64,000 nucleotides of DNA from Mycobacterium decipiens (GTDB taxonomy: Bacteria; Actinomycetota; Actinomycetes; Mycobacteriales; Mycobacteriaceae), in the NCBI RefSeq assembly GCF_963853665.1, contig NZ_OY970459.1, positions 2,480,001-2,544,000 of the forward strand, written 5' to 3'. Each line of letters opens with the position of its first letter. Positions within the stretch are counted from its first letter, which is position 1. Of this stretch, positions 22,175 through 40,719 are shown piece by piece. A model generated the notes under the pieces. The model saw only the letters and a program-made list of their open reading frames with translations, ran no database searches and was not told where the DNA came from. Made by a program: the position numbers and the translations under genes.

Positions 22175-22248
22175 CGGGCTGTGGCGCAGTTTGGTAGCGC
22201 ACTTGACTGGGGGTCAAGTGGTCGCAGGTTCAAATCCTGTCAGCCCGA
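22175..22248 (+). tRNA. tRNA-Pro, anticodon GGG
   Basis: A 74-nt cloverleaf. The acceptor stem CGGGCTG pairs with CAGCCCG and is followed by discriminator A; the D-arm is GCGCAGTTTGGTAGCGC. The anticodon stem CTTGA/TCAAG encloses CTGGGGG, giving anticodon GGG, and the T-arm contains GGTTCAAATCC. CCA is not encoded. The accessory region begins right after it. Confidence 0.95.
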
Positions 22249-22353
22249 CTTAGAGAAATATGTCTTGACCTGCCAATATGCACTCGCCGTTGGGTGAACA
22301 GCCTGTCGCGGTTTGACGACGCGGCACTCTTTTGCGGGATGGGCATGCCTGCG

Positions 22354-23079
22354 CTAGTCGCGACGGCTGGCACGGACCCGGTAGTCGAATGAGATGAATA
22401 ACCGCTGACGATTGGCGCCCCGCCACCTCTCAACCGGCGGGAACTGGTGAACTGTATAGGGCGGCCGATAGACGATCTGGCCGGTCATGCCTGGTTGTGC
22501 CGTGCCAAGGCTCAAAAAGTCGATCGCCGCGATCTTCCAGTCCCCGCCAGAATCTTGCTGCAGCCGAACGACCCCGTCTTGCTCATCGAGGAAGAACTCG
22601 GTCGGCGGGCCACCCAGAACACAGTCGATCGAGTGGCAACCTCCCAGCCAGAGGAACGAACCAGGATCAGGCCGGTGTGGCGGAGGACTCTGCCATTCGC
22701 TCTCGTTGAAAGTGGTCCCCGCGCACCAGTCGATGTGTGCGCCCTGGCGCTGCGTGTACCGATCTTTTTCGTCGACCCGAACCGTCACCATCAGTTGGTT
22801 CTCGTCGAAGTCGACTCCGAAGATCTGCCGGCATGCCGATGTCATGCGAGCGAGCACATACAGGCTAACTGGCGTGGCCGATTTGATCGCATACGCATAG
22901 GGTTTCGCCGCGAATGTAGGTTGGTCCGCAAAATCGAACGACTCAATGCGCCAACGAACGACGTCAGGGGTGTGTTCGTCGACCACCGGTCCCAGCGGGA
23001 GGATCCGCCTGCTCGCAAAGCGCACCGTAGCGGTGGCGCGCCGGCGGTCACCGGTATTTGTTCGAACCCCGTGCACCAT
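22354..23079 (-). other. Oxygenase-like module, probably a separate gene (Fe(II)/2-oxoglutarate type)
   Basis: Stretch of 241 codons from ATG 23079. A possible facial triad is visible: HxD in GAHIDWCAG, a distal His in PPYTVHQFPPV, and a downstream Arg in NRQRLFISFDYRVR that could bind 2-oxoglutarate. The region SFLWLGGCHSIDCVLGG lies between them. These spacings fit the cupin-type oxygenases that hydroxylate amino acids or peptides, but I recognise no specific family. Next to a RiPP cluster, a tailoring hydroxylase is the natural guess. It could instead be a leader-processing or regulatory cupin. Confidence 0.45.
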
Positions 23080-24285
23080 TGTTGGTGGGTCGACGTCGTT
23101 ACCACCTACGCGCGGCCGTGGGCCAGGATGATTTCCTGGAGAATTCCGACGCGTTGCTCGTGCCGCGGGGTGGTGTGATCCGATGTCAAGGAGCCGGCTC
23201 GATACCCGGTCGATGGTGGCGCAGCGGGCATCGTGATCGTGATGATCACCGAGTCGAACGGCTCTGTGCCAGGATCGCCGCGCTAATTCGTCTGCCCGCT
23301 TTTGCCAGACGGGCAAACGCCCCGATCCCTCGGCGCACACCGCGACAAACCACGCCTCGAACACCTCGTCGCCTACGATGCGCGAAGCATCGTAGGCCGA
23401 TGCAGCCCAATGCATAGCCAACCGCTCGTCTAGCTGCCACATCAGGGCGACGATGTGTTGCAGGACGGCGAGTTCCCACGGGCGTACTGTGCTCCCCAGA
23501 AGACGTCGTGCCGTCAAGTCGAGGATGGCGGTGTCGACGAGTTCTGCACCGCCGCGAGCCAGGTTCAACTCCGCGAGCCGGACGTCGCGCACCGCCGCCA
23601 ACGGTGGTTCGGTTGCATGCTGCCAGTACACGTCGGCGACGGTGCTCCCCGCTTTACCGACGAGACGATCAACGATCAGGTGCGCCTCATCCAGCATGTG
23701 GCGCAGATGGAGCTCGCACTCGTAACCATCGAGCGCAGAGGCGATCTCGTCGATGCGGTCATACGCGCCGTCACGCAGGGCGCAGAGCAGGTTCTCATGG
23801 GTCCAGTTGTATCGCAGGAACTGTGGCAGCACCTCGACTTGGGTGAGCAGCTGGTCCCAGTCGCCAGGGGCGAGCGAGGCAGCGCCTATGGTTGCCGACT
23901 TCGTCTGCCATTCCCGGCGAAGGACATCGAGCCTCTCGACGGCCCGGTCATAGTGGCCCTCGACGCGATCCAGGCGCGCAAGGTTTACCCAGGGCTGGAA
24001 CGCGTAGGCAATCACGCCCCGGTTGTTCCCAGCACAGGCCATCCTCTCGAGCCAACCGATCTCAGTTTCGCACAGTCGCCGCGCCAGATCCGTTCGGCCG
24101 AACATTGCTGCCAGCAGCGCCCCCAGATTGAAGCACTTGACAACCGCATAGACACGGGCCAAACCGGTGTCATCGGCTTCGGGCGCTGAATCGAGTTGAC
24201 GTTCAATTGATTCCACCATCCACGGCAGCGCAGGTCGTAAGGCGTGGTCCAACGTCGCAAGCAGGTTCAAGGGCACATTCTGCAT
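22354..24285 (-). CDS. Helical-repeat protein read through into an oxygenase-like domain, possibly two genes joined by a frameshift
   Basis: As sequenced this is one 643-aa frame. Residues 1 to ~365 are Leu/Ala/Arg-rich helices resembling a TPR-like scaffold. Residues ~403-643 look like a non-heme Fe(II) oxygenase. Between them about 30 residues are Pro/Arg/Gly-rich and read poorly. One base change would explain this: if the AA at 23188-23189 were a single A, the helical protein would continue in another frame as LLTSDHTTPRHEQRVGIL and end at a TAG at 23106-23108, just before ATG 23079. So the fusion may be a frameshift between two formerly separate genes, or a sequencing error. ATG 24285 has GGGAG eight bases upstream. 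It is divergent from the RiPP operon and probably belongs to it. Confidence 0.6.
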   Translation of the reverse strand: MQNVPLNLLATLDHALRPALPWMVESIERQLDSAPEADDTGLARVYAVVKCFNLGALLAAMFGRTDLARRLCETEIGWLERMACAGNNRGVIAYAFQPWVNLARLDRVEGHYDRAVERLDVLRREWQTKSATIGAASLAPGDWDQLLTQVEVLPQFLRYNWTHENLLCALRDGAYDRIDEIASALDGYECELHLRHMLDEAHLIVDRLVGKAGSTVADVYWQHATEPPLAAVRDVRLAELNLARGGAELVDTAILDLTARRLLGSTVRPWELAVLQHIVALMWQLDERLAMHWAASAYDASRIVGDEVFEAWFVAVCAEGSGRLPVWQKRADELARRSWHRAVRLGDHHDHDARCATIDRVSSRLLDIGSHHPAARATRRNSPGNHPGPRPRVGGNDVDPPTMVHGVRTNTGDRRRATATVRFASRRILPLGPVVDEHTPDVVRWRIESFDFADQPTFAAKPYAYAIKSATPVSLYVLARMTSACRQIFGVDFDENQLMVTVRVDEKDRYTQRQGAHIDWCAGTTFNESEWQSPPPHRPDPGSFLWLGGCHSIDCVLGGPPTEFFLDEQDGVVRLQQDSGGDWKIAAIDFLSLGTAQPGMTGQIVYRPPYTVHQFPPVERWRGANRQRLFISFDYRVRASRRD

Positions 24286-24303
24286 TACACGTACTCCCGC
24301 AGC

Positions 24304-24567
24304 TCAACTTTTGGTATGTGGTGCCGAGTTCGGCCTGTAGCTCCTCCGGGCGTCAGCCGAGCCGGAATCACCGGCCGTTGAAATCGCAGATAGCTCCGTC
24401 CAACGTCGCATGAAACGTCCGCAACGGAAAGCGAATCTCTGTTGTTCTGAAGTCTGAACTGGAATAGAGGGGCACAGTTCGTACGGTGTCGGAATGGTAG
24501 GTGACTGCTCAAGCAGCGACGATCCGAGGGTCGTGCCGCCAAGTTGAGGTGCGAATGCGCTCCGCAT
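24304..24567 (-). CDS. Small hypothetical protein upstream of the helical-repeat gene
   Basis: 87 codons, ending 18 bp before the helical-repeat gene start, on the same strand. The sequence after SPTIPTPYELCPSIPVQ reads like ordinary protein (FRCGRFMRRWTELS) and has two Cys and a Ser/Arg-rich tail. No ribosome-binding site is evident at ATG 24567, and an alternative frame (24285-24542) stops in a TAATG overlap with the helical gene. Only one of the two can be real. No function is proposed. Confidence 0.25.
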   Translation of the reverse strand: MRSAFAPQLGGTTLGSSLLEQSPTIPTPYELCPSIPVQTSEQQRFAFRCGRFMRRWTELSAISTAGDSGSADARRSYRPNSAPHTKS

Positions 24568-24624
24568 GTGTGTAGTTTGTCACGCCGCGGCTACAGGCGC
24601 TCTCGTCAGGCGATGAACCGGCTA

Positions 24625-24662
24625 CGTGGGCATTATTGACGGCCGCGTGGACATTATTGACG
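24625..24662 (+). promoter_or_regulatory. Tandem 17-bp direct repeat, operator candidate for the RiPP operon
   Basis: CGTGGGCATTATTGACG (24625-24641) and CGTGGACATTATTGACG (24646-24662) differ at one base and are 21 bp apart, two turns of the helix. They sit between the divergent helical-repeat gene and the precursor gene, just upstream of a -35-like TTGACA. This arrangement fits side-by-side binding of a dimeric activator or a response regulator. No regulator gene is seen in the cluster. Confidence 0.5.
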
Positions 24663-24677
24663 AGTCAACGCGACCCG

Positions 24678-24707
24678 TTGACAGCGCTGACACGACCGTA
24701 TTATGCT
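24678..24707 (+). promoter_or_regulatory. Promoter candidate for the RiPP precursor
   Basis: TTGACA at 24678-24683 with TATGCT at 24702-24707 (18-bp spacer), or TATTAT at 24699-24704 with a shorter spacer. It lies 85-110 bp upstream of the precursor ATG and right after the tandem 17-bp repeats. Mycobacterial promoters often lack a good -35, so the match to both boxes is notable. Confidence 0.45.
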
Positions 24708-24792
24708 CATGTTCACATTGCGCTCACACGCATTTTCAGCTAACGCGTTCTAGCCAAGTTGGCGATCGCGTTATCGGGGAGGGGAATGTGGT

Positions 24793-25260
24793 ATGGCCGG
24801 TGGGGATTATATTTCTCCTGCAGATATCGATTTCGATGACCAGGGCCGGGCAATAATTTCTAATCCGGCAGTCGTGAAACGGTTACGTGAATTGGGCAGC
24901 AACGACACGATTAGCGCCGCGGCCAGTCTCGAACTCAAGAATGTCGGCTGCTGCAGCGTAACCGACGAGTTGCGCAAGTCGGCCAAAGATTTCGCCGAAG
25001 TTGAACTTAAGAATGTTGGCTGCTGCAGCGTAACTGATGAGTTGCGCAAGTCGGCCAAAGATTTCGCCGAAGTTGAACTTAAGAATGTTGGCTGCTGCAG
25101 CGTAACTGATGAGTTGCGCAAGTCGGCCAAAGATTTCGGCGAGCTCGAACTCAAGAATGTTGGCTGCTGCAGCGTAACCGACGAGTTGCGCAAGTCGGCC
25201 AAAGATTTCGCCGAAGTCGAACTCAAGAATGTCGGCTGCTGCAGCGTAACCGCGGAGTAG
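24793..25260 (+). CDS. Multi-core RiPP precursor peptide with five GCCS repeats
   Basis: 155-aa protein. Residues 1-46 form a leader-like segment (GGDYISPADIDFDDQGRAII, then NPAVVKRLRELG). From residue 47 a 24-residue unit repeats: ELKNVGCCSVTDE, LRKSAKDFAEV; the Cys pairs are at 53/54, 77/78, 101/102, 125/126 and 149/150. Unit 5 is cut short by TAG. Gly followed by Cys-Cys-Ser is the type of core that YcaO enzymes turn into azol(in)es, and the acidic/basic helix-like spacer (DELRKSAKDF) may act as an internal recognition or cleavage segment. ATG 24793 is preceded by GGGGAGGGG. The three downstream maturase genes make a precursor role very likely. The modified product is unknown, and I know of no described family with this repeat. 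Confidence 0.85.
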   Translation: MAGGDYISPADIDFDDQGRAIISNPAVVKRLRELGSNDTISAAASLELKNVGCCSVTDELRKSAKDFAEVELKNVGCCSVTDELRKSAKDFAEVELKNVGCCSVTDELRKSAKDFGELELKNVGCCSVTDELRKSAKDFAEVELKNVGCCSVTAE

Positions 25261-25320
25261 CGCAAGTCGGCCGAAGATTTCGCCGAACTCGAACTCAAGA
25301 ACATCGGCTGCTGCAGCGTC
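24931..25320 (+). repeat. 72-bp coding tandem repeat, five full units plus a sixth partial
   Basis: Units start at 24931, 25003, 25075, 25147 and 25219; a partial sixth runs 25291-25320. Units 2 and 3 share the same synonymous choices and are identical over their first 64 bases, so they duplicated recently. The TAG stop lies in unit 5, where units 1-4 have TTG. The sixth unit keeps the CC-Ser codons (reading KNIGCCSV) but is beyond the stop. Confidence 0.92.
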
Positions 25321-25389
25321 GACAGGCCCCGAGTCCCTAATACAGCAACACTCGGTGGCAGAGGCGCGGTCGAGCCAAAGGAGCTTACC

Positions 25390-26424
25390 GTGACGATCCT
25401 GCCTGTGCGCGACTACTGGACGGCCGCGGCGGATGCATTCGCCGCAGACGCACTTGAATTGACACTATTGCCTACAGAGCAGTGCAATCTTCGTTGCACG
25501 TACTGCTACGAAACATTTGCAGTCGGCCGGATGGAGGACTGGGTCGTTGCGGCGGTAAAGGAGTTGATTGCCCGTCGGGTGCCCGAATTGCGCCGACTGA
25601 CACTAGATTGGTTCGGCGGCGAACCGCTGCTGGCGATAGATATTATTGAGGAGATCAGCGGACTGGCGCAGATTTTGTCGCACGCCAATCCTCTTGTCGA
25701 GTACCGGTCTTCGATTACCACAAACGGCGTGCTGCTCACCGCCGATTACGCGCGGCGGCTTTCCGCGGTCGGTGTGGACCACCTACACGTCAGTTTGGAC
25801 GGGCCGGCACCAAGCCACGATCTGACTCGCAAGCTGCGGGGAGGGCGGGGCACATTCGAGCGAATCCAAACAAATCTGTACGAGATTCGCGCTAGTGATG
25901 TCGATACGCACATCGACCTCCGAGTGCACGTGACTCCAGCCAACGTCGACGTTTTGGACGAGTTCACGACGCATCTGATCGAGACCTTCCTCGACGACGA
26001 ACGTTTCTCGGCATACTTCTTCCCCATAGTCGACCTGGGTGGCCCCAACCAGGGCGACTTTTCGGTGCTGCGTCCTTCTGAGGCGTCCGCTGTGGTGCAG
26101 CGGTTGTCGGTACGTGTGGCGGAGGTACAACGACGAAAGCCTAAGAAAGGCAAGGGCTGTGATTCCTCCTATGTATGCTACGCCGCGAAGCCGAACGCCT
26201 GGGTAGTTCGCGCCGACGGGCGCCTCGCCAAGTGCACAGTCGGCTTCGAAGACGAGCGCAACAACGTCGGCCGCATCCTGCCCGATGGGTCGTTCGAGGT
26301 CCGCAGTGACGACGTGCGACCGTGGCTTCGGGGATGGTCGAACGGTGACATGCTGAGCTTGCACTGCCCATACGAGGAGATGCGCGACGACGTGCAAAAC
26401 GGACTTGTCACCTCGCGGCGATAG
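25390..26424 (+). CDS. Radical SAM peptide-modifying enzyme with twitch-type auxiliary cluster
   Basis: 344 aa. The SAM-cleaving 4Fe-4S cluster is held by CNLRCTYC (Cys 32, 36, 39), followed by DWFGGEPLL and ITTNGVLLT. The C-terminal region has Cys 257, 263, 282 and 326. Cys263-x13-Gly-x4-Cys282 matches the SPASM/twitch CX9-15GX4C motif, but the later Cys cluster of full SPASM domains is missing, so one auxiliary cluster is likely. Relatives form thioether or carbon-carbon crosslinks, or epimerise residues in RiPPs. GTG 25390 follows AAAGGAG. The frame is open upstream without a stop to the precursor's TAG, so the two genes share one frame. No separate leader-binding RRE protein is visible nearby. 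Confidence 0.88.
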   Translation: MTILPVRDYWTAAADAFAADALELTLLPTEQCNLRCTYCYETFAVGRMEDWVVAAVKELIARRVPELRRLTLDWFGGEPLLAIDIIEEISGLAQILSHANPLVEYRSSITTNGVLLTADYARRLSAVGVDHLHVSLDGPAPSHDLTRKLRGGRGTFERIQTNLYEIRASDVDTHIDLRVHVTPANVDVLDEFTTHLIETFLDDERFSAYFFPIVDLGGPNQGDFSVLRPSEASAVVQRLSVRVAEVQRRKPKKGKGCDSSYVCYAAKPNAWVVRADGRLAKCTVGFEDERNNVGRILPDGSFEVRSDDVRPWLRGWSNGDMLSLHCPYEEMRDDVQNGLVTSRR

Positions 26425-27715
26425 CGCTATCGACACACGGGTCTTGTCATTCAGCCCGGGCAATCGGCATGCCCCGGTACGCGGTCGGGCGGGTTACATT
26501 GAAACGCCCACTGGTGCAGTACAACTGCCCAACCTGCCGCCAGCGTTCGAGACCCTCCTGATGCGGCTGCCGCTGCCATCGCCGTTAGCTACCGGCGGTT
26601 TCGCTGCCATCGGCCCGGAAGCTGTGGCGGTGATTGCGGCGCTGGGCCGCTCGCGCATCGTTGAGGAACAAGTCCTATCCGGCGACGGCCGGGTACTGGC
26701 AATAGCGCACTGTCCGACGCTTGCAACGGCGAGCCAGCGTACCCGACAAGTTCGACTGCACGAGTCGGTGTTCTTGCGGCGCGGGCGCATCGGCTGGACC
26801 CTCTATCGTGCCGATGGCGCGCCTCATGTCGACATCGAACCTAGCGCCGTCGACTTTGCCCGGCTTATCGGCGCGCCGGAAGCGAGCGACCTCACCGCCG
26901 TCGAAAGACTGCTTCTCGACAATGGTCTGCTTATCGATCTCACCGGCCATGCCGAGCGGAAACCGGTATGGGAGTTCCATGATGAACTGTTGCACTCGGT
27001 GTCCGTGCATGGTGCCGCCACGGCCATCGCTTACGGCGCGCGCCGTGAAGCCAGTCTCCCTCAGGCCCCGCTGAACGGCACCGGCAGCAATATCAATACT
27101 CACCCACTGCCCGAACCAGAGGCATGTACCACTCCGCTGGACGAAGTATTCGTAAAGCGGCGGTCCTGCCGTGTTTTCAGTGCCGAGCCGCTGAGCGCCT
27201 CCGCGCTGGCCACCATCCTCGGTCTGGCGCTCCGCTCGCACTCCGCCCATGTAGCCAACACAGGCGACATGGTTCGGCATTCCTATCCGAGCGCGGGAGC
27301 TCTCGACGAAATCACCACAGTGGTCGCCAGCACCGGCCCCTTCGCCGGGGTGAGCATATACCGGCACGCACAGCACCGACTCGAAATCCTCCAAGACTCG
27401 ACTGTGCGAGCGCGGGAGCTGATCGAGACATTATGTGCCCCTTGCGGAATCATCAAACCGCTGCCCTGCATCGGTCTGGTATTCGCCGCAGACTACGCGG
27501 TGATGGCCGCCAAGTACGCGAGCATCGCCTACGCCAACATCCTGCGCGACGTCGGTGCCGTCTATCAAACCGTCTCACTGGCCGCCACTGCGGTCGGTGC
27601 CGGCAGCTGCATTGTCGGCGGTGGCTGGGGCCAGCTCGAGCGGCAGTCTGTGGCCGGGCTTCATGAGAATCAGGTTGTTGTCGGCGGCATGGTCCTCGGA
27701 GCGCGGGGACAATGA
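26405..27715 (+). CDS. SagB-like flavin-dependent peptide dehydrogenase (nitroreductase fold)
   Basis: About 436 aa. Residues ~250-436 form the FMN nitroreductase fold with DEVFVKRRSCRVFSAEPLS, HSYPSAGALDE, YASIAYANILRDVGAVYQ and GGWGQL. The N-terminal ~230 residues are an extra domain, possibly a peptide-binding winged helix. SagB-type enzymes oxidise azolines made by YcaO proteins to aromatic thiazoles and oxazoles. The start is uncertain: the frame opens at a TTG (26405) that overlaps the radical SAM gene by 20 bases, and other TTG codons follow; there is no ATG before the conserved part. The stop overlaps the YcaO start (ATGA). Confidence 0.85.
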   Translation: MSPRGDSAIDTRVLSFSPGNRHAPVRGRAGYIETPTGAVQLPNLPPAFETLLMRLPLPSPLATGGFAAIGPEAVAVIAALGRSRIVEEQVLSGDGRVLAIAHCPTLATASQRTRQVRLHESVFLRRGRIGWTLYRADGAPHVDIEPSAVDFARLIGAPEASDLTAVERLLLDNGLLIDLTGHAERKPVWEFHDELLHSVSVHGAATAIAYGARREASLPQAPLNGTGSNINTHPLPEPEACTTPLDEVFVKRRSCRVFSAEPLSASALATILGLALRSHSAHVANTGDMVRHSYPSAGALDEITTVVASTGPFAGVSIYRHAQHRLEILQDSTVRARELIETLCAPCGIIKPLPCIGLVFAADYAVMAAKYASIAYANILRDVGAVYQTVSLAATAVGAGSCIVGGGWGQLERQSVAGLHENQVVVGGMVLGARGQ

Positions 27716-29358
27716 CCAACGCAACAACCACACGACGCGTGACCGGGCACCTCATCGACAGCTTTGTCGTGCACATCGAGACCGATGGCGCCGACGTCGT
27801 GATAAGTCCATTGCTCGGCGACGGCAGGCTGTGTGAGCGGTGCTGGCGGCGCCGGCGCGCAGCGGCGATTGACCGACAGCGCCTGACGGCCGCCGAAGCT
27901 GAAGCGAACTTGGCGGCGGCTCTTGACCAACCTGTCACAGACTCGCAGTGGAGCACCTCGCAGCGGAGTGAAGTCAATCGGCATCTCGCCGCGCGCACGG
28001 TCGATGCCCAACGGGGTCGTGCCGAAATCCCATATCAACTGGCCAGAATCGCGTCTGACGGCTATGTCCGCGTTGAGCCGGTTGTGCCGTTGCCGGAATG
28101 CCCGACGTGTTGGCACGCTGCCGTTGAGCCGCCCAAGCTACGCGCGCCGCAGAACATAGTGGGTGAAACCGCGGGCATCGTCACGACCATTAAAGAATTG
28201 CCCCCTGCGGAGGGTGAGCTGCCGATGCCCCATGTGATGATCGTCCGCTTGGCCAATAGTTCGCTGAATCCAGACCGGCCGATCTGGACGGGCGCCTCTG
28301 GCAAGGGCTGGAGCAAGCCCGACGCGATTCGGTCCGGACTCGGCGAAGCCGTAGAGCGCTACTGTGCCAGCGTCGTTAGCGTGCCCGTGGTCACCGCCTG
28401 CCACGCTGAGCTTCCGACCGCGGTCGATCCTGCATATCTGAGCGGCATGAGTTCGGCGGCAGCTGCGGCCGCAGGCCAGGATCCGACCGCGCCACGCCCG
28501 TGGGTCGCTGCTCGAGTGATCGACGGCGCGCAGGAGCACGTGTGGGTACCAGCCGCATCGGTCTATCTGAATCTGCCCCCTCGGTGGCGTACCCCGCGCA
28601 GTGCCCCGATGTCGTCGAACGGTCTAGCCTGCGGGGTGGATGAGGCTAGCGCGATCACGTCGGCGTTTCGCGAGGTCATCGAACGACACGAGTTCTTTTC
28701 GGTCTGGTACGGACTGAGCTCCGCCTGCGAGGTAGTCGCGGACAACGCGCTGGCTCCGGAATTGCAGGACCCGTTCGCAGCGCACGAGTTGCGGCTGCGG
28801 GTACTTATTCTCGGCGAACGCGATGGCGTGGTCGTTGCCTCCGCGTCCTGTTGGCCGCGCAGTCCGTCGCCGAGCAGGCCTGGATTCACGCTCGGTTTGG
28901 GTGCCGGGGACGACGCCGCAAAAGCGATGACTAACGCGGTCCTTGAGCTGGCTCAGGTCTACCGCGGTTTGAGCTGGGCCCTTCAACTGCCGTCGATGAT
29001 CGGCCGCGCACGTTCACTTGCGGCGGGTCGCATCGTGCCCGTCGAACCGTATGACCACGGCCTGCTGTATTCGCAGCGTGACGCCTCGACAGTGCCGTGG
29101 CCGTTCGGCTTGGGCGCTCGCCGTGCGTGCCGAACGGTCGGAACCGTTTCTAGCGTAACCGATTTCGGCCAGGCGCTGTTCGTAGATCTAACGTCGAAGG
29201 ATGTGCTGGAATCGGTGGGGTGGCGGGTCGTCCGCGTCTTGGTGCCCGACGCTATCCCGTTTCATTTCGGCACCCGCACGATCCCTGACGCCCGTCTGTA
29301 CTTGTCGACCGCGCAGCGTATCGACTTTGCAGGCCCACTCCTGCATCCGCTGGCTTGA
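27712..29358 (+). CDS. YcaO-family azoline-forming cyclodehydratase
   Basis: 548 aa. Two CxxC pairs (Cys 41/44 and 130/133) in the N-terminal ~140 residues resemble the zinc tetrad of the E1-like partner of TOMM cyclodehydratases. The YcaO domain then shows its ATP-binding acidic residues: GKGWSKPDAIRSGLGEAVERY (27998-residue coding region near 28306-28360), SNGLACGVDEASAITSAF and EVIERHEFF. The C-terminus ends AGPLLHPLA, comparable to the Pro-containing tail of TOMM YcaO proteins. These enzymes activate the backbone amide with ATP and cyclise Cys/Ser/Thr. The GCCS units of the precursor are the obvious substrate. ATG 27712 overlaps the preceding stop. Confidence 0.88.
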   Translation: MTNATTTRRVTGHLIDSFVVHIETDGADVVISPLLGDGRLCERCWRRRRAAAIDRQRLTAAEAEANLAAALDQPVTDSQWSTSQRSEVNRHLAARTVDAQRGRAEIPYQLARIASDGYVRVEPVVPLPECPTCWHAAVEPPKLRAPQNIVGETAGIVTTIKELPPAEGELPMPHVMIVRLANSSLNPDRPIWTGASGKGWSKPDAIRSGLGEAVERYCASVVSVPVVTACHAELPTAVDPAYLSGMSSAAAAAAGQDPTAPRPWVAARVIDGAQEHVWVPAASVYLNLPPRWRTPRSAPMSSNGLACGVDEASAITSAFREVIERHEFFSVWYGLSSACEVVADNALAPELQDPFAAHELRLRVLILGERDGVVVASASCWPRSPSPSRPGFTLGLGAGDDAAKAMTNAVLELAQVYRGLSWALQLPSMIGRARSLAAGRIVPVEPYDHGLLYSQRDASTVPWPFGLGARRACRTVGTVSSVTDFGQALFVDLTSKDVLESVGWRVVRVLVPDAIPFHFGTRTIPDARLYLSTAQRIDFAGPLLHPLA

Positions 29359-30109: not shown

Positions 30110-30150
30110 CCGATGGGAACATTCCGTCGGTATTGCGCGACTATAGAGAG

Positions 30151-30861
30151 GTGAACTGTGAAGTGGCCCGCGAGGCGCTCTCCGCCCGACTCGACGGCGA
30201 GCGGGAGCCGGTGCCCGCGGCACGGGTCGATGAGCACCTCGATGGGTGCGCCGCTTGCCGCGCCTGGTTCGATCGGGTGGCTAGCCAGGCTAGCGACCTG
30301 CGGGGGTTGGTCCAGCCGCGGCGTGTTGGCGCACCTCTTGGCCCGCTCAGGATCCGGCGAGTGCCGCCGCGGAGACGGATACGGATGAGTTGGCAACGAT
30401 GGGCGTTGTTGGCCGTGGGCATCGCGCAAATTGCGCTGGCGGTCGTGCAAGGGGTGGGCCTCAACCTCGGGCTGGCACCCGCGCACGGCATGAGTTCTGG
30501 GCACCACCTGCTTAACGAATCCACATCCTGGTCGATCGCACTCGGTGTGATCATGGTGGGCGCGGCGGTGTGGCCGGGTGCCGCTGCGGGTCTTGCGGGT
30601 GTCTTGACGGTGTTCGTCGGTGTCCTAACGGTCTATGTTGTCGTGGATGCATTGTCCGGCGCCGTCACGACCACACGGATCCTGACGCACATCCCGGTGG
30701 TGATCGGCGCGGTCCTGGCGACCATGGTGTGGCGAAGCATTGCTGCGCCGCGGCCGGCACCGGATAGCGCCGCGGACGAGCCCGATATCGTGTTGCCCGA
30801 CAACGCAGCCCGTGGCCGGCGCCGCGGTCATCTGTGGCCTACCGATGGGTCGGCGGCCTAG
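30151..30861 (+). CDS. Zinc-finger (anti-sigma-like) membrane protein, Rv0093c-like
   Basis: 236 aa. The N-terminus has the anti-sigma zinc-finger pattern: [31 protein letters not shown] (HxxxCxxC). Four hydrophobic helices follow (residues ~80-200) and a basic tail ends the protein. Such proteins usually hold an ECF sigma factor at the membrane, but no sigma gene is adjacent. GTG 30151 starts right at the finger; the frame is open upstream only because it runs through the mazF remnant. It is convergent with the copper ATPase gene and the two stops overlap by four bases, the same arrangement as Rv0092/Rv0093c. Confidence 0.8.
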
Positions 30862-33116
30862 TCACGCTCTAGAGCACTAGTGGCCCCGAAGTTCCGCAAC
30901 CGCAAGCTGTTCGAGACGACGAAGAACGACGAAAACGCCATGGCCGCACCGGCAATCACCGGGTTGAGCAGTCCGGCGGCGGCGATCGGGATTGCGGCGA
31001 TGTTGTAGCCGAATGCCCAGACCATGTTCATTTTGATGGTGCGCATCGTCGCTGCGGCCAAGTCGAGCGCCAGGGGCACAACCTCGAGGTTGTCGCGGAC
31101 CAGGATGATGTCGGCGGCGCCGATCGCGACGTCGGTGCCGCGTCCGATGGCCACACCCAGATCGGCGGATGCGAGTGCGGGACCGTCGTTGATGCCGTCC
31201 CCGACCATGGCGACCACCCTGCCGCGGTCGCGCAGCTGCTCGATGACGTCGACCTTGCCTTCGGGCAGGACATCGGCGATCACCTCGTCGATACCGACCC
31301 GAGCGGCCACGGCGGCCGCCGATTCTGGATTGTCGCCGGTCAACAGCACGGTTCGAAAGCCGCGCTTGTGCAGTGCCGCAACGGCATCGGCTGCCGAGTC
31401 CTTCACCGCATCGGCCACCGCGATGACCCCGCACGGCTCACCGTCGACCTCGACGAAAACGGCTGTCTCACCACGTGATTCGGCGCTACGCCGGGCCGCG
31501 ACCATCGTCGCCGAGCTGCGCGACGAGGAAGCGATCCATGATGGTTTGCCCACCCGTACCGCCCGCCCCGCCACCGTGCCACAAACTCCGCGCCCGGGTA
31601 CTGCGCGGAAGTTCGCCACGTGTTCCCGCGCAATCCTTGACGTGGCGATCGCCAGTGCGACGGCGTGCTCGGAGGCCGCTTCCAGCGTCGCAGCCAGTTC
31701 GAGCACCGCGTCGGCTTGCCAGCCCGGCGCCGCCACCACCGCGCTGACCGCCAACTGGCCCGTGGTCAGGGTGCCCGTTTTGTCGAAAACGACAGTGTCC
31801 ACTGCCCGGGTGGCTTCCAGACAGTGCTGGCCTTTGAGAAATATCCCGAGCTGGGCGCCGCGACCGGATGCCACCATCATTGCGGTCGGGGTCGCCAGTC
31901 CCAGGGCGCACGGGCAGGCGATGACAAGTACGGCAAGTCCGGCCGAGAACGCCCGATCGGGTACACCGCCGGCGATGAGCCATCCCACGGTGGTCAGTAC
32001 CGCGATCGCGAATACGCACGGAACGAACACCGAGGCGATGCGGTCGGCGAGCCGCTGCGCGTCGGCCTTTTGCGCCTGCGCCTGCTCGACGAGGCGAACC
32101 ATTCCGGCGAATTGGGTGTCGCGACCCACCGCGGCGGCCTCCACGATCAGCCTGCCGTCGAGTACCGTCGTGCCACCGACGACCTTTGCGCCGGGATTCA
32201 CCCGGACCGGCTTGGCTTCGCCCGTCATCGCACTCATGTCCACCGCGGCCGACCCGTCGACGACGAGGCCATCGGCGGCGATTGTCTGACCGGGGCGGAC
32301 CACGAAGCGCTGCTGTTCGGTAAGTTCGTCGGCCGGGATGACCATTTCCGAGCCGTCGGGCTGCAGGACTGCGACGTCTTTAGCGGTCAGCGCTGCCAGG
32401 GCACGCAACGCGCCGCCGGCCTTCGACTTGGCGCGGGCTTCGAAATACCGTCCCGCCAGCACGAACACCGTGACCCCCGCGGCGACTTCGAAGTAGACGG
32501 CGTCGCTTCCCAGCAGCGCTTGCCAGACACCCGCGTGCTCGATGGGCCGCCGACTGCCGAAGACGGTGTAGAGCGACCACACCGTGGCGGCGGTGATGCC
32601 GACGGAGATCAACGTCTCCATGGAGGCGCCCAGCGCGTGCGCGTTGCGCAGCGCGACTCGGTGGAATGGCCACGCCGCCCAACACACGACCGGGATGACC
32701 AGTGCAGTCAGCACCCACTCCCAGCCGGCGAAGCGGGTGCTGGGCACCACGGCGAACATCACCGACATGTCGGCCAAGGGCACGAACAATACCGCGGCGA
32801 CCGCCAACCGGATCAGCAGATATCGCGCGTGATCGGCGTCGGGATCGGCCTCGCCCGCACCGCCGGCGCTGCGCGGCTCGGCTTGATATCCCGCTCGCGC
32901 AACCGCCTCGCACAGCGCGGTGGCCTGGGTGTCCTCAGCGGCGTCGATAGTTGCCATTCGGGTGGCGAAGTTCACCGACGCCCGCACTCCCGGCAACTTG
33001 TTGAGCGCCGACTCAACCCGCCTGGCGCACGCTGCGCAGGACATCCCGGTGACCTCGAGTTGTACCCGATGCACGCCTACGGGGCGCTCATCGGTTGCCG
33101 CGGTCGTCGCCGACAT
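30858..33116 (-). CDS. ctpA: Copper-type P1B ATPase, CtpA-like
   Basis: 752-aa heavy-metal ATPase. An N-terminal HMA domain carries [12 protein letters not shown]. The membrane metal site is the CPC of [12 protein letters not shown]; the phosphorylation site is DKTGTLTTG; the HP motif is [10 protein letters not shown], and the hinge is [10 protein letters not shown]. The C-terminal helix reads [18 protein letters not shown], typical of CopA-type Cu(I) pumps. In mycobacteria CtpA/CtpB-type pumps supply or export copper. It lies 37 bp after the nrp gene on the same strand, so it is probably the last gene of the isonitrile lipopeptide operon, consistent with a copper-acquisition role. Confidence 0.9.
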
Positions 33117-33123
33117 CTTTACC

Positions 33124-33140
33124 GTTCACCTCCTGTGAAC
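33124..33140 (-). promoter_or_regulatory. Hairpin enclosing the ctpA ribosome-binding site
   Basis: On the minus strand GTTCAC-AGGAG-GTGAAC is a perfect 6-bp stem whose loop is part of the AGGAGGTGA ribosome-binding site of ctpA, about 12 bases before the ATG. A 15-bp palindrome, TGGTCACTGTGACCA (33151-33165), overlaps the nrp stop just upstream. Together they could regulate translation of the pump relative to nrp. Confidence 0.4.
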
Positions 33141-33153
33141 CCGAGCTCACTGG

Positions 33154-36100
33154 TCACTGTGACCATCCATTTGCCAATAGTGCCCGAACCGACTGTGGTG
33201 TCGCGGTGAGCTCGGCAACGGGGTCGACCCCAACGGCGATGGTCGGGCGCTCCGCCAGGTACTCAGCATAGGAGCGGGCACCGAGCGTCATACCCAAGGT
33301 GACCCACGCATCGACCACCGACCACCTGCGCGGATGCTTCTTCGCCCAGTCGCTTTGATCCAGCCGATGCTTCCACTCGGGGGGGTCGAGTTCGTCGAGC
33401 CCGTACCCGCGGAGGAACTCCGCGTATGCCACCGCTTCACCGCGTACGACGCTGATTCCCCGTCCCAACTCGGCCGATCCGCCCAATTCCGGCAACAGGC
33501 CCAACACGGCCTGCGCGGCGGCTCGGCCCGTGGTGATCTCTTCGGTCAATGTCAACCAAGGATAGGCCCGCAACGCGATACAGGCATCGACGACCGAGAC
33601 CAGAACGTCGGCGGAATCGTGCAATTGATAGTCCTCGCCAAGTACCCGGGGCAGGCGTACCAGGGTGAAATCGAGTGCGTGCGGCGAGCCGGCCACGACC
33701 AGCTCCGCCAGTGCCTTGGATGCGGCATAGGGATAGGGCGCGGCACGGGGATCGGTGACTCGCGGCGCGGTGACATCCGCATTGACGACGAACGTCGACA
33801 AATGCACCAACCGGATATTGCGGCGCGCGCATGCCGCGGCGATGGTGGAGACAAGCTCCACGTTGGGCGACCGGATTTCGCGGTATGGCACGAGCACGTT
33901 GGTATTGCCGATGCAATTGACGAGGGTTCGGGCGTCCGTGTCGGGCATTAGTGCGTCGAGTTCTCCTGGGCCAAGCTGAGCGGAGATGTGTTCGATCCGA
34001 ACCCCATCAACGTTGCGCAGAGCTGCCCATGGATCCCGGTCGGGGAGTTTTGATCTCGTGGCCAAGACCACTTCAGGACACGGTGCCCCGGACCGTCTCA
34101 GGTCGAGGACCGCGCGAGCGAATCCGGTGCCGAGAATTCCCGACGCACCCAGCACGAGGATTGCCCCGTCGCGGTTGCCGTTCGGAGGCGCTTCGACGCT
34201 CAACGCGGTAGGCGGATGGGGCCGCCACTGTGAAGCAAGATCGCGGTCAATCTCGGCGGCAGTCTCCGCGTCCATCCATGCATCGGCCCTCGGCGCTGCC
34301 CCGCTCAGGTTGGCCGTCAGGTTTGCGGCGGTATCGGCGCTGATCAGATCCAGAACCGATAGGTGCTGACCCAGATACTTGCGGGTGTCGGGGAGGATCC
34401 GGATCAGATCCAGCGAGCCGATCCCCTCGCCGAGCAGCGACGCGTCTACCGGGATGGCCCTGCCGAGGTGCCGGCTCCAGATGTCCGCGAGACCCGCCGC
34501 CCGTTCGCCCGAGCCGGAACGGCTTCGCACAGCATCCACGAACTGCGGCATCGTCCGCAGGGTGTCGCCGTCGACCTTCCCGTTCGGCTTCCGCGGGATA
34601 TTCGGCACGCCGACAACGCAAAACGAGGACACCCCGAAGCTGACGAGAATCAGCCTGATCCGTGCCGCCGCCGCATCATCTTCGCCGCCTTCGCGGGTCC
34701 GTTGGGTCTGGAACCACACCCCCAAACTTGCCCTGAGAGCAAATTCGTGCAGCTCGACGGCGACATCGGATACCGCGGGATCCTCGGAGATGCGCCGGGC
34801 TACCGCAGCGGTGTCGACACGCTTGCCGGACACCTTCACGATGGCGTCTTTACGTCCGGAGAAGACCGGAAAACCGTCGGCATCAATAGTTACCCGGTCG
34901 GCGGTGGCGAACGCGCGGCGTCGTGAACCGTCAATGGTGGTCACGGTGCCGAAGCCGGGGCCGTCGATCCCGAGGTAGCCGGCGGAGACCAAGTCCCCGA
35001 GGATGACGACTTCACCAAAGGCGAGGAACACCGTGTTCGGTACTATCGGCCGGCCCAGACCGAGGCGGGCTCCGTCCGCCAGGTTCGCCCGGTCGCAGAC
35101 GATCGGCAAATGGGTGACGACTACTGTGGTCTCTGTCGGACCATAGGTCGATACAAGCGAGATCCCCTGCGAGGCACCAGAATCGATCCACTTGTCGACG
35201 GCGCTGGAGCGGATGGCTTCACCGCCGACTACTATCTGCCGCAGCTGCGAGCGACGCATCGCGTCAATGGCATCGCCGTCCTCGCACAACAGCTGCCACA
35301 CAGCGGTCGGTAGGTCGACAACTGTCGCCCCCTGGCCAGCGGCATCTCGTGCGAGCGCCTGCAAGTCACCCGCTCTCATGGCCGTGGATCGAACCAGCTT
35401 CGATCCACTGAATGCGCCGCCAAAGACCTCCTCGACACTGATGTCCGACGTCAACGGCGCGCACTGGAGGATGGCGTCGTGTGTTCCCCAGCCATAGGCG
35501 TGTCTGATCGCGGCGCAGAAAAGCGCGAGCGACCCGTGGGAGATTCGGACAAGTTTGGGTTGCCCGGTGGTCCCCGAGGTCGGCATGATGTACGCCGTTT
35601 TGGCGGCGAGCAGGGTGTCGTGTGCCACCTGTTTGATGCGCCCGTCGACGAGCTTGCGGAGTTCGTCCTCAACGCCCACCGCGAGCCGGGCAGCGGCGAC
35701 GTCGACAACGTGCGCCGACACGCCATCGCCGTGCTCGGCAATTGTGTTCGCTCGCAATAAAACCTCGTCGGCGGAGTCGCAGACGCTGTAGCCGCAGCCA
35801 GCGAGGTGGCACGCGATCAGGAGGTCGATGGTCTTGTCGGTGTTGTCGTCGGTGAACACCAGGACGTCACCCGGCACGGCGCCGCTTTGCACCAACCACG
35901 CCACCCATGGGTCGACATAGCAACGCGTTTCAAGAGTTTGGTCGACGCCCCCCGAGGGGTCCAGGAACCAGGCGGGCGCTGCCGGCCGGTGTGTCTGGGG
36001 TGTTCCATCGCCGTGGTTGCGGGACCCGTCCGGGCCAATGCCGAACCACTCGTTGACGGTCATGGCGATCGGCTGCTCCCACATCGCCGCCATCGATTCC

Positions 36101-37368
36101 AATGCCGCGGCGACGCGTGCTGCGACCCTGGGGTGTGTCTTCCACTCGGAAAGATCCGCTCTGTTCCAGATGGACAGGCTAAGGGTGCGCTGGCCCTCGT
36201 CCAGAACACAGGCCACGGTCATGCCCTCGACTGGACCAATCGCCGTTGCCACCGGTGTTGTTGACAAGAATGGGCGAAGGCTGGGGGCGCATGGCTCTCG
36301 TATGAAATTGAGCGTCAACGCGTCCACCTGAGATGTCCGGTTGATCGCCAAATACATTCGGCGGTAGTGCTCCTCACGAAGCCACCGGCGTCTGACTGCC
36401 TTAACGTAGCCGCGGTCAACATTGCGAACGACGTCCTGTACCGACGCAAATGGGGGAAACCGGACCGAGTGCGCAACCGAGTTGACCAGACACGTCGCGA
36501 CATTCAGATCAGCATCTCCGAACCGGTTGTCCACGGCGTGAACCAGCAGGCTCTCGGTGTTCTGCCGAAGGCTAGCGTCCACCGCTACCGCCGCCGCGGC
36601 CACCAGCACGTTGAGGGGGACCTGCTGTGCCTCCGAAAGGGTGAGGATTGTGTCATAGGCCTTGCCGGAGATCACTATTGATTCGTGCAGGACCCCCATG
36701 GCGGCGGTCCCAGAAGCGTTGGTTGAACCGTGACCGTACCCGCCATGGTGCGCCTCTTCGGCGAGCTCACGCTGCACCACGTCGGCGAGACGCTGCCGCG
36801 ATTCCTCCGCCCTGGTCGTCTCGCGACGGTGTGCTTTAGTCAGCTTGGTCAGACCCACTATGACACAGGGGATCTCCTCCACCCATCCGGCTGCAAGGTG
36901 CCGTGCCAGATCATCCTCGATGATCCCCGTCGCGCCGCCATCAAGCAGGATGTGGTGGGTGTGCACGTCCAGGCCCAACACATAGCCGCTCTCGTCGGTC
37001 CGCACGGCATACCGCACGAGTGGCTTCGCGAGGATGTCAGAAGACCACGCGCGCTTGAGCTCATCGGCACCGCGAGGTATCTGGTCTGTCGGGTACGGAT
37101 CGTCTGACCACACGCTCACGATGTCGCCGAGCTGCAGCCCTGGCACGAACTCCGGATAGCCACCTTCCGTCGGCGCATCGAGAACGCAAAGCTGCAAAGG
37201 GTTTTCGAGTATCGTTGCTTCCAGGGCCGCCTGGAATCGCGGCAGCTCCACTGGGTGAAACCGATAGCTCTTGCCGATCAGATACAAGGCGGGATCACTA
37301 TCCTGCAATACGCCGTTGTAGATGTTCTGTTGCGACCTACTCAGGGGCACTCGATCAGGCGGGGTCAC
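33154..37368 (-). CDS. nrp: One-module NRPS (C-A-T-R), isonitrile lipopeptide synthetase
   Basis: 1404 aa. Domain order: condensation (HHILLDGG, matching HHxxxDG, near residue 138), adenylation (TSGTTGQPK near 596; VSTYGPTETT; A8-like FSGRKDAIVKVSGKR near 840; PNGKVD), carrier (GIGSLDLIRIL, pantetheinyl Ser near 985), and an NAD(P)H reductase (ILVLGASGILGTGF near 1070; YAASK). The reductase releases the peptide as an aldehyde or alcohol. This matches ScoA-type enzymes of isonitrile lipopeptide pathways. The M. tuberculosis Nrp (Rv0101) is about 2500 aa with two modules, so this one is shorter by a module. GTG 37368 overlaps the ACP end by 14 bases; the frame is open 11 codons upstream. Confidence 0.88.
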   Translation of the reverse strand: MTPPDRVPLSRSQQNIYNGVLQDSDPALYLIGKSYRFHPVELPRFQAALEATILENPLQLCVLDAPTEGGYPEFVPGLQLGDIVSVWSDDPYPTDQIPRGADELKRAWSSDILAKPLVRYAVRTDESGYVLGLDVHTHHILLDGGATGIIEDDLARHLAAGWVEEIPCVIVGLTKLTKAHRRETTRAEESRQRLADVVQRELAEEAHHGGYGHGSTNASGTAAMGVLHESIVISGKAYDTILTLSEAQQVPLNVLVAAAAVAVDASLRQNTESLLVHAVDNRFGDADLNVATCLVNSVAHSVRFPPFASVQDVVRNVDRGYVKAVRRRWLREEHYRRMYLAINRTSQVDALTLNFIREPCAPSLRPFLSTTPVATAIGPVEGMTVACVLDEGQRTLSLSIWNRADLSEWKTHPRVAARVAAALESMAAMWEQPIAMTVNEWFGIGPDGSRNHGDGTPQTHRPAAPAWFLDPSGGVDQTLETRCYVDPWVAWLVQSGAVPGDVLVFTDDNTDKTIDLLIACHLAGCGYSVCDSADEVLLRANTIAEHGDGVSAHVVDVAAARLAVGVEDELRKLVDGRIKQVAHDTLLAAKTAYIMPTSGTTGQPKLVRISHGSLALFCAAIRHAYGWGTHDAILQCAPLTSDISVEEVFGGAFSGSKLVRSTAMRAGDLQALARDAAGQGATVVDLPTAVWQLLCEDGDAIDAMRRSQLRQIVVGGEAIRSSAVDKWIDSGASQGISLVSTYGPTETTVVVTHLPIVCDRANLADGARLGLGRPIVPNTVFLAFGEVVILGDLVSAGYLGIDGPGFGTVTTIDGSRRRAFATADRVTIDADGFPVFSGRKDAIVKVSGKRVDTAAVARRISEDPAVSDVAVELHEFALRASLGVWFQTQRTREGGEDDAAAARIRLILVSFGVSSFCVVGVPNIPRKPNGKVDGDTLRTMPQFVDAVRSRSGSGERAAGLADIWSRHLGRAIPVDASLLGEGIGSLDLIRILPDTRKYLGQHLSVLDLISADTAANLTANLSGAAPRADAWMDAETAAEIDRDLASQWRPHPPTALSVEAPPNGNRDGAILVLGASGILGTGFARAVLDLRRSGAPCPEVVLATRSKLPDRDPWAALRNVDGVRIEHISAQLGPGELDALMPDTDARTLVNCIGNTNVLVPYREIRSPNVELVSTIAAACARRNIRLVHLSTFVVNADVTAPRVTDPRAAPYPYAASKALAELVVAGSPHALDFTLVRLPRVLGEDYQLHDSADVLVSVVDACIALRAYPWLTLTEEITTGRAAAQAVLGLLPELGGSAELGRGISVVRGEAVAYAEFLRGYGLDELDPPEWKHRLDQSDWAKKHPRRWSVVDAWVTLGMTLGARSYAEYLAERPTIAVGVDPVAELTATPQSVRALLANGWSQ

Positions 37369-37600
37369 ACAGACTCTCCAGCTCCCGAACCCAGCCCGCA
37401 ATCGACAGGTTCTCCGCGAGTCGGGACGGCAGTTCGGATTCTCGGTTCACGCCGAGCTGCTTCATCAGGAGAACGAACCGCACCGAGTCGAGCCCCAGGT
37501 CCCTGAGATCGGTTTTGTCGCCGTCAATGAGATCGGATTCCTCGATGTACAGCACGGCGCAGACGGCGGCGAGGATCCGCTCCCGCACCGTCTCAGCCAC
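37355..37600 (-). CDS. Acyl carrier protein of the isonitrile lipopeptide pathway (Rv0100-like)
   Basis: 81-aa carrier protein. The phosphopantetheine serine is in RDLGLDSVRFVLLMKQLG. It carries the beta-isonitrile fatty acyl chain made by FadD10, the FcoT-like enzyme and the oxygenase, and hands it to the NRPS condensation domain. ATG 37600 overlaps the fadD10 end by eight bases, so the three genes are translationally coupled. Confidence 0.88.
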   Translation of the reverse strand: MAETVRERILAAVCAVLYIEESDLIDGDKTDLRDLGLDSVRFVLLMKQLGVNRESELPSRLAENLSIAGWVRELESLCDPA

Positions 37601-39206
37601 GAACGGCCACTGCGGTTTTGTCGGCGCTTATCGCCGCTGCCAGCGACGCCCGCATGACCTTTCCGGACTGCGTTCGGGGAATATCCGCCACGATCACGAT
37701 TGTCGATGGCCGCGCCATCGACTCCGAGTCACGTCGAAAGCGAGCCGCAATCGATTGCTTCAGCTTGCCGGCTGCTGGCTCGTCGAGGTCTGTCGACGGG
37801 ACCACCGCCAGGCCCACCAACGCCCCGAACTCCGGATCGGGTATCTCGTAACACGCGGCGGCACGGACACCCACAACGCCCTCCGCAATGCGATCGACCT
37901 CGTCGGGCGCGATGTTGACGCCACCGGAGATGATCATCTCCGACGACCGGCCCTTGATATAGAAGAAACCGTCCGGGTGGCGCTCCAACAGGTCGCCGGT
38001 GTTCACCCACCCGTCACTCAGAACTTCTTGGGTGCGATCCGGATTGTTCCAGTACCCCAGCATGTTCGCCGGTGACCTTATCCAAAGCGTGCCGAACGTC
38101 GCGGACGGGGCAGCGCCGGGGGCGGTGGGGCCCCCGCCATCGGTACTAGCCGCATCCGCCAGATAGACGTCCACGCCAGGGTAGGGACGTCCCACAGCAC
38201 CAGCCTCGATCTTGGAGATTGAGCCTTCATCGGTCGGCAGACACAAGGCGGTACAACCCGTCTCGCTCAACCCGTAGACCTGTGCGGTGCGGACCCCGGT
38301 GGCTTCAATGAATCGCACATCGGCTGCGATCGCCCGCGAACCGCCGTATCCCACTAGACGCAGCGACGGAAGCGTCGCGTCTGCGGTCTTGAGTTCGGAA
38401 ACCAGTTTCGAAAGAAGAGTCGGAACCAGGCATGTCGTCGCGACCGCGTTCGCGTTGAGAATCTCCATTAGGGACGGCGTGTTCTCCCCCCCGGTGATAC
38501 ACAACCCCCCATGCATCAGGCAGGTGAGTATCCACCACAGTCCGCCGATGTGCGTCGCCGGCAGCGGTGAGTAGGTGGTTTCGCCGACGACCCAAGTGAC
38601 CCAGTTCAATCCCTCCTTTTGCAAGATGTCCGGGATGGCGAAGAAGGTGCGATTGGCCAGCAGCACCGCCTTTGGATCACCCGTTGTGCCGCTGGTGAAG
38701 ATCATCGCCAGCGGATCATCGGCGCCCTGCTGGGGGAGTCCGGCAACATGATCGGCATCCAAGCATTTACCGAAATCCATTGCAGCAGCGGATATATCGA
38801 CCGGGATCGTCGGTATCGAGTCGAGCGTTTCGGGCAGCGAGGAAGATCCGATCTTGCTTCCGGGTGCAATGAGAATCGCGCCCGGGTCGGTGATCTGGCA
38901 GAACCGGCCGATGGTTGCCGGCGGAAGATTGCCGTCCGCCATGACCGCGATCGCGCCGAGTTTCGCGCACGCCAGCACCGAAAGATATGTCTCGGGTCCG
39001 TTGTCCGAAACGACGATTACCCGGGATCCTCGTGAAACCGCCTGCGTACGAAGCTTGGCGGCGAGCTTCGCCACTTCGGTGACAAGTTCGGAGTACCGCA
39101 GCGCGCTGGTGCCGTCGCAGCGACGCAAGGCGACCGCCTCAGGCCGCTGCCGCGCCTGCTGAAAGACTCGTTCCAGGACGGTAGGCGGCAAGTGAGGCAT
39201 AGCCAT
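37593..39206 (-). CDS. fadD10: Fatty acyl-AMP/ACP ligase FadD10-like
   Basis: 537-aa ANL-family adenylating enzyme. The P-loop-like motif reads MIFTSGTTGDPKAVLL; later VYGLSETG, GWVNTGDLLERHPDGFFYIKGR (with the hinge Asp) and the terminal lysine in RTQSGKVMR. In the pathway it activates a fatty acid and transfers it straight to the ACP rather than to CoA. I choose ATG 39206, with AAAGGAG eight bases upstream; the frame extends 50 codons upstream, but those run into fcoT. Confidence 0.9.
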   Translation of the reverse strand: MAMPHLPPTVLERVFQQARQRPEAVALRRCDGTSALRYSELVTEVAKLAAKLRTQAVSRGSRVIVVSDNGPETYLSVLACAKLGAIAVMADGNLPPATIGRFCQITDPGAILIAPGSKIGSSSLPETLDSIPTIPVDISAAAMDFGKCLDADHVAGLPQQGADDPLAMIFTSGTTGDPKAVLLANRTFFAIPDILQKEGLNWVTWVVGETTYSPLPATHIGGLWWILTCLMHGGLCITGGENTPSLMEILNANAVATTCLVPTLLSKLVSELKTADATLPSLRLVGYGGSRAIAADVRFIEATGVRTAQVYGLSETGCTALCLPTDEGSISKIEAGAVGRPYPGVDVYLADAASTDGGGPTAPGAAPSATFGTLWIRSPANMLGYWNNPDRTQEVLSDGWVNTGDLLERHPDGFFYIKGRSSEMIISGGVNIAPDEVDRIAEGVVGVRAAACYEIPDPEFGALVGLAVVPSTDLDEPAAGKLKQSIAARFRRDSESMARPSTIVIVADIPRTQSGKVMRASLAAAISADKTAVAVRG

Positions 39207-39226
39207 GACCGCTCTCCTTTCGGGGG

Positions 39227-40647: not shown

Positions 40648-40719
40648 CGGCTCCGTTCACCCCATCCATTTCTTACGGTTTTGGTCATTGTGTAATGCAA
40701 AGTTCCCCTATTCGTGTCC

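Follow-up and report, generated by a model that had tools for sequence, protein, structure and literature searches.

A candidate multicore peptide cluster with radical SAM, SagB-type and YcaO enzymes predicted to act on a repeated KN[VI]GCCS core in Mycobacterium decipiens

What might be made by a cluster in Mycobacterium decipiens that places a repetitive, Cys-rich peptide gene directly before three genes for modifying enzymes? The cluster lies in a stretch of 64,000 nucleotides (the window), positions 2480001-2544000 of a single 5.3-Mb contig; all coordinates without further prefix are those of the window. On its plus strand, the open reading frame (ORF) list gives a 155-aa precursor peptide (24793-25260, ATG start), composed of a leader (residues 1-48) and five KNVGCCS units. 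It is followed by a radical S-adenosylmethionine (SAM) protein of 344 aa (25390-26424, GTG start), a SagB-type flavin mononucleotide (FMN) dehydrogenase of 436 aa (26405-27715, TTG start) and a 548-aa YcaO protein with an N-terminal Cys4 (CxxC/CxxC) domain (27712-29358). The radical SAM and SagB-like ORFs share 20 bases, and the SagB-like and YcaO ORFs share 4. The radical SAM protein (PF04055, 76.6 bits) and the YcaO protein (PF02624, 127.8 bits) both score above the Pfam cut-offs, as does the dehydrogenase (PF00881, 58 bits; cut-off 23.5). An initial annotation, made from the letters alone, had proposed this gene order and read it as a pathway for a ribosomally synthesized and post-translationally modified peptide (RiPP), namely a thiazole/oxazole peptide of five 24-residue units with one extra radical modification per unit. 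The gene order is correct and the RiPP assignment is supported, and the interpretation as a whole holds in part. In the reading that we prefer, with a probability of roughly 55%, the product would be a multicore hybrid, in which each unit receives an Asn-Cys thioether of the NxxC type from the radical SAM enzyme and azol(in)es at the neighbouring Cys and Ser from YcaO and SagB.

The five cores of the precursor (24937-25245, plus strand) are spaced by exactly 72 bp. Between units 1, 2 and 4, the 2-4 codons that differ are all synonymous; unit 3 additionally has GEL in place of AEV; and the stop codon truncates unit 5 after ...GCCSVTAE. A partial and untranslated sixth unit (LKNIGCCSVD) continues the frame beyond the stop, at 25261-25330. 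The degenerate DNA pattern for KNxGCC, AARAAYNTNGGNTGYTGY, has six matches in the 5.3-Mb genome, all of them here (five in the gene and one in the partial sixth unit). Since neither the opposite strand nor a reversed-pattern control gave any match in the whole genome, this clustering is not due to chance.

The protein search with the precursor detected two relatives, and the search with an alignment of these three detected seven proteins; both searches scored the approximately 8,000 candidates that share most words with the query. One protein, P0018, was left out of the counts: it is a 48-aa piece on a 94,976-bp contig, identical to units 4-5 of the window gene, and probably represents the same gene in another assembly or strain. 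The six relatives counted (P0001, P0002, P0016, P0017, P0019 and P0020; 83-167 aa) contain 2-6 full cores each. Together with the window precursor, all seven fit the leader pattern I-[SP]-x-x-x-[IV]-[DES]-F-[DT]-x-x-G-x-A-x-I. KN[VI]GCCS, preceded by L, I or V, is present in 23/23 complete units of the seven precursors, the cut terminal unit of P0017 standing outside this number. The distance from one GCC to the next ranges from 16 to 38 residues, with no conserved spacer. As judged from these alignments, the conserved core is the heptapeptide KN[VI]GCCS and not the 24-residue unit, so that a defined 24-residue product is unlikely; we rejected it, and with it the special role once given to the ten-residue spacer DELRKSAKDF, which varies among the relatives. 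Two further matches were at chance level: the only one in a plasmid scan with P0016, and a PADLOC Cas8c match of the precursor.

The radical SAM protein carries the CX3CX2C motif and three further Cys (C263, C282 and C326), the set expected of an auxiliary-cluster (SPASM/twitch) enzyme; the CX13GX4C motif noted in the initial annotation corresponds to C263, G277 and C282. All six Cys (C32, C36, C39, C263, C282 and C326) are invariant in 16/16 aligned proteins. In fold comparisons, thioether and formylglycine-type enzymes score above epimerases. The protein was not filed under either of two curated families, whose cut-offs it does not reach: TIGR04463, radical SAM/SPASM maturases (133.6; cut-off 525), and NF047865, PapB ranthipeptide maturases (103.3; cut-off 340). 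Viperin-type matches in PADLOC are distant and were also set aside. Relatives with approximately 32-46% identity are encoded on plasmids of Streptomyces, Sinorhizobium, Acetobacter, Bradyrhizobium and Deinococcus, on viral contigs and in nine genomes from a single further actinobacterial genus. In L011, one of the Streptomyces plasmid loci, the precursor lies at 5676-5870 and the radical SAM gene at 5920-6960. Among 396 genomes of the phylum, a radical SAM profile (A3, E-value 1e-45) matched only the genome of origin, and 29 phage records with weak matches include none at 80% coverage.

The radical SAM protein is one member of a broader family without a name, whose precursors have a leader pattern in common. 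Where a precursor was recognised, the loci of this family combine the leader pattern with an Asn-Cys core as in the window, mostly with one short Cys-containing core. Asn-x-x-Cys occurs in 13/17 of these cores, and 1000 shuffles, which ignore kinship among the loci and start from candidates chosen via the leader motif and by eye, reach at most 10. Asn stands directly before Cys in 7 cores (reached in 43/1000 shuffles); N-x-C is found in 2, N-x3-C in 7 (40/1000), N-x5-C in 5 and N-x6-C in 6. The count was drawn from 24 loci, with one candidate per locus (two for L010), trimmed at the start by eye and restricted to the part after the leader. The regular expression for candidates required the leader motif and a Cys on the same strand as the radical SAM gene, with no demand for Asn. 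Chance-frame matches were dropped in L015, L018, L019, L025, L030, L031, L033 and L034, near-duplicates (L019, L024 and L034) were excluded, and L013, L018, L036, L037 and L038 gave no usable candidate; a reverse-strand peptide in L013, with the leader pattern and N-x3-C, was left uncounted. Across the family (L010-L015, L023-L031, L032-L035 and L064-L072), small precursors with the leader [FLIV]DxxGRxxI and Asn-Cys cores adjoin a short radical SAM protein, and the hosts are Actinomycetota, Alphaproteobacteria and viral contigs. L033 and L034 have five N-x-x-C within one core. On a plasmid of Deinococcus sp. KNUC1210 (L018), the radical SAM relative adjoins a flavin-type oxidoreductase of the LLM class, two lantibiotic dehydratase genes and small hypothetical proteins. 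A plasmid of Methylomagnum ishizawai (L016) encodes a peptide with Cys at every fifth position, CefA, and with it a 2-oxoglutarate oxygenase and two radical SAM enzymes, one of TIGR04463 and the other a C-methyltransferase.

The YcaO protein has the heterocyclase fold and the intact ATP site that are among the features of the linear azol(in)e-containing peptide/thiazole-oxazole-modified microcin class. Its model matches the heterocyclase LynD over nearly the full length (460 aligned), the N-terminal domain included, and the predicted architecture thus supports the role of azoline maker given to it in the initial annotation. Both CxxC pairs are present, and the four Cys are invariant in 13/13 aligned proteins. 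As to a leader-binding or E1-like partner, fused or separate, TIGR03882 gives an E-value of 5.6e-5 (23.4 bits; cut-off 36.9). The best relative, P0004 of a Mycobacterium sp., is 66% identical. In two overlapping draws from the genus, only the genome of origin was matched, 1/297 (E-value 1e-20) and 1/396 (E-value 1e-30). A third draw, which overlaps the others, gave 0/394; the genome of origin was not among its matches, and the draw therefore has no positive control. Pattern searches gave 69 matches in genome contigs with one protein, 84 in genome contigs with alignment A1 and 23 in viral contigs, with no confirmed relative among them; 4 plasmid records match weakly, none at 80% coverage. Three other YcaO genes are present in the same genome: L073 (G000:C1:2466773-2467693), L074 (88923-89921) and L075 (1286820-1287746), the latter two with an adjoining SagB-like ORF. 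The SagB-like protein of the cluster aligns with CyaGox, the KY..IAY stretch included, which is consistent with the proposed oxidation of azolines. On plasmids, 10 records have SagB matches, none at 80% coverage. A Mycobacterium avium plasmid (L022) carries a SagB-family dehydrogenase beside nonribosomal peptide synthetase (NRPS) and WXG100/PE/PPE genes, with no YcaO in the 12.6-kb stretch.

Taken as a pathway, the hybrid reading would proceed as follows. The common leader would dock the precursor on the enzymes. The radical SAM enzyme would abstract a hydrogen from the Asn of KN[VI]GCCS and bond that carbon to the sulphur of a Cys located three (or four) residues downstream, a step that the NxxC pattern and the fold point to and for which C263, C282 and C326 may hold an auxiliary Fe-S cluster. 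YcaO, using ATP, would make azolines of the Cys and Ser that are left, and SagB would oxidise these to azoles, as expected from family and fold. The spacers would act as linkers and are probably removed by unlinked proteases. The order of residues in N-V-G-C-C-S allows both steps: if the Cys at +3 forms the thioether, Cys-Ser is left to YcaO, and if the Cys at +4 does, Gly-Cys is left. The occurrence of N-x-G-C in several relatives (L015, L023 and L033) speaks for +3.

Several observations weigh against this hybrid, among them the neglect of kinship and the choice by eye in the NxxC count. First, N-x4-C is enriched in the wider family as strongly as N-x-x-C, so that the size of the thioether ring is not fixed. 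Second, the two best fold matches of the radical SAM protein tie, and one of them, anSMEcpe, is a non-crosslinking enzyme. Third, a first Cys that is cyclised by YcaO cannot be the thioether donor. Fourth, the YcaO protein scores 118.9 against TIGR03604, with a cut-off of 219.25, and the SagB-like protein scores 68.6 bits against TIGR03605, with an NCBI domain cut-off of 78.4. A C-terminal PxPxP is typical of azoline-forming YcaO proteins. Here, the YcaO C-terminus consists of HPL and one more residue, with no PxPxP, and H-P-L is invariant in 13/13. Finally, the constancy of KN[VI]GCCS is partly a matter of ascertainment, because the relatives were found via shared five-residue words. The contrast between a constant core and free spacers is not an effect of this kind.

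One alternative, unlikely but deserving to be kept in mind, is a peptide with azol(in)es and no thioether: the radical SAM enzyme would then epimerise a residue or change it in some other way, and Asn would be kept for recognition only. The initial annotation had left the radical step as a crosslink or an epimerisation. The tie with anSMEcpe would suit a non-crosslinking enzyme. However, the relatives without YcaO keep Cys and Asn at fixed distances (the 13/17 above), which is needless for an epimerase, and the fold scores rank thioether and formylglycine-type enzymes higher. The crosslink is thus retained, narrowed to a likely Asn-Cys thioether of the NxxC type, and epimerisation is less favoured.

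A further alternative concerns function, and overlaps with the hybrid reading: the peptide may remain uncut, as a multi-site polypeptide that buffers or senses copper and is used with the adjacent chalkophore operon. Outside the cluster, on the minus strand (30858-42108), lie a copper P-type ATPase gene and an isonitrile-lipopeptide operon (NRPS, FadD10, FcoT, ScoE and PPE). FcoT is present, and high scores were obtained for ScoE (485.6 bits; cut-off 400), FadD10 (1064; 726) and the copper-type P-type ATPase (500; 397). In M. tuberculosis and M. marinum, this operon is copper-responsive and serves copper acquisition (PMC9600254; PMC7924339). These neighbours, the 2-6 near-identical sites on variable linkers and the lack of a protease or exporter gene among the neighbours scanned, already remarked upon in the initial annotation, are all consistent with an uncut buffer. 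Against it, a single genome shows this neighbourhood, the operator-like repeats before the precursor gene (see below) were not found at the chalkophore operon, and exporter genes in some loci of the wider radical SAM family point to secreted products. We regard the buffer as having a small chance. A copper role of the cluster is possible, and it is the location alone that suggests it. It is likewise rather doubtful that the product represents a new class of multicore peptide, whose KN[VI]GCCS cores, each with an Asn-Cys thioether ring fused to a thiazole/oxazole pair, form a sulphur- and nitrogen-rich metal site and so a second, gene-encoded copper ligand beside the chalkophore operon.

It is improbable that YcaO makes thioamides (or amidines) and SagB acts elsewhere, which would give a peptide with thioether and thioamide. 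The missing PxPxP would fit such a YcaO, but the LynD match takes in the N-terminal domain, TIGR03604 scores 118.9 versus 49.4 for TIGR03266, no TfuA partner was matched among the neighbours scanned, and the SagB gene lies between the radical SAM and YcaO genes. Decay into a non-functional cluster, to which the partial sixth unit beyond the stop codon and the low G+C content (0.548 at 24400-25330, versus 0.643 in the window) might point, is very improbable given that the four ORFs are uninterrupted and lie close together, that units 1, 2 and 4 differ synonymously only and that the catalytic motifs are retained.

Upstream, a divergent gene for a 643-aa protein (22354-24285, minus strand) probably also belongs to the pathway, judging by homology. 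In three related loci, the gene that immediately follows the radical SAM gene is homologous to residues 52-185 of this protein: the identity is 25% across 134 residues for L069 (pairwise E-value 8e-12), and the similarity is weaker for the genes in the same place in L071 and L072. With phmmer, the E-values against the three loci are 4e-11, 4e-7 and 2e-6. Of the 51 loci scanned, these three alone have a gene of this kind, and they belong to the nine genomic loci. The protein matches no Pfam family, plasmid or PDB entry. An HxD...H pattern was seen, by eye only, in its C-terminal part. An ORF of L064 (8504-9826) was rejected as a homologue: it has no similarity, and may be in the wrong frame. 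Between the 643-aa gene and the precursor, two exact 14-bp direct repeats, GGRCATTATTGACG, lie 21 bp apart in an operator-like arrangement (24628-24662, plus strand), with exact copies nowhere else in the genome. Copies with one mismatch are found at 11871-11884 (minus strand) and at two more places in the genome. The promoter-like TTGACA-18-TATGCT that follows (24678-24707, plus strand) matches at 10/12 positions; 2 such sites are found in the region with 1.2 expected, and the site is hence weak by itself.

Comparison with relatives may provide some clues to the history of the locus. With the thresholds used, nine of 50 relatives hold both ScoE and engA. The two are approximately 0.9 Mb or more apart on the same contig in G006, G020, G022 and G026, and on separate contigs in the other five. 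The stretch 22354-29358 has no match over 60 bases in six stretches of relatives (three downstream of engA and three around ScoE), one of which, L086, keeps the block 30115-43048. Therefore, the RiPP genes sit where two blocks meet that lie apart in the relatives. A tRNA-Pro(ggg) gene (22175-22249, plus strand) forms the left edge of the non-syntenic stretch; beyond this gene, or beyond engA in the case of L083, the window diverges from the three relatives used for comparison. We do not take a tRNA-linked insertion as proven: at the right edge, synteny does not resume at the same place, so that a rearrangement is equally possible. The location of the chalkophore operon with its copper P-type ATPase is not common to the relatives compared.

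The cluster resembles several known systems in part. NxxcA, from an NxxC radical SAM RiPP system of Streptococcus orisratti, has an Asn-x-x-Cys motif in which the enzyme joins Cys to the Asn beta-carbon. The cluster is like NxxcA/NxxcB (ranthipeptide type) in its Asn-x-x-Cys core and in the SPASM/twitch-type radical SAM enzyme adjoining a small precursor, and unlike it in the multi-unit precursor, the second Cys with Ser and the YcaO and SagB genes; this likeness is one of motif and enzyme type. The heterocyclase-fold YcaO and the FMN dehydrogenase recall linear azol(in)e-containing peptides (microcin B17 type, McbBCD) and SagB-type dehydrogenases, but here a Cys4 domain is fused to YcaO, PxPxP is missing, a radical SAM enzyme is added and a seven-residue core is repeated. 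Unlike in the cyanobactin heterocyclases LynD/TruD, the first domain of LynD is missing, since the alignment begins at LynD residue 154. Multi-core cyanobactin precursors differ in their core and in the protease gene, of which none lies among the neighbours scanned here. Finally, the 24 related radical SAM loci scanned (5.8-16 kb) contain no YcaO or SagB and mostly a single short core.

In the open-licence literature searched, KNIGCCS, KNVGCCS, NIGCCS and NVGCCS are absent, and 'igccs' appears only in unrelated papers. Searches there for YcaO with SagB and radical SAM, for ranthipeptides with azoles, for mycobacterial YcaO RiPPs and for NxxC with thiazole gave, among the papers listed, none whose title or start of abstract describes the repeat or the pairing. 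By title and abstract of the listed papers, the earlier statement that no described class combines this repeat with the three enzymes thus still stands. Radical thioether and azole chemistry are each known in ribosomal peptides, and we found no description of both on one short repeated core. If the hybrid reading is true, the cluster would offer a compact, fixed, seven-residue repeated substrate for following in what order a radical SAM enzyme and a YcaO act and how far each excludes the other. It would also place an NxxC family with a recognisable leader outside the streptococci, and may add a gene-encoded metal ligand beside a mycobacterial chalkophore operon.

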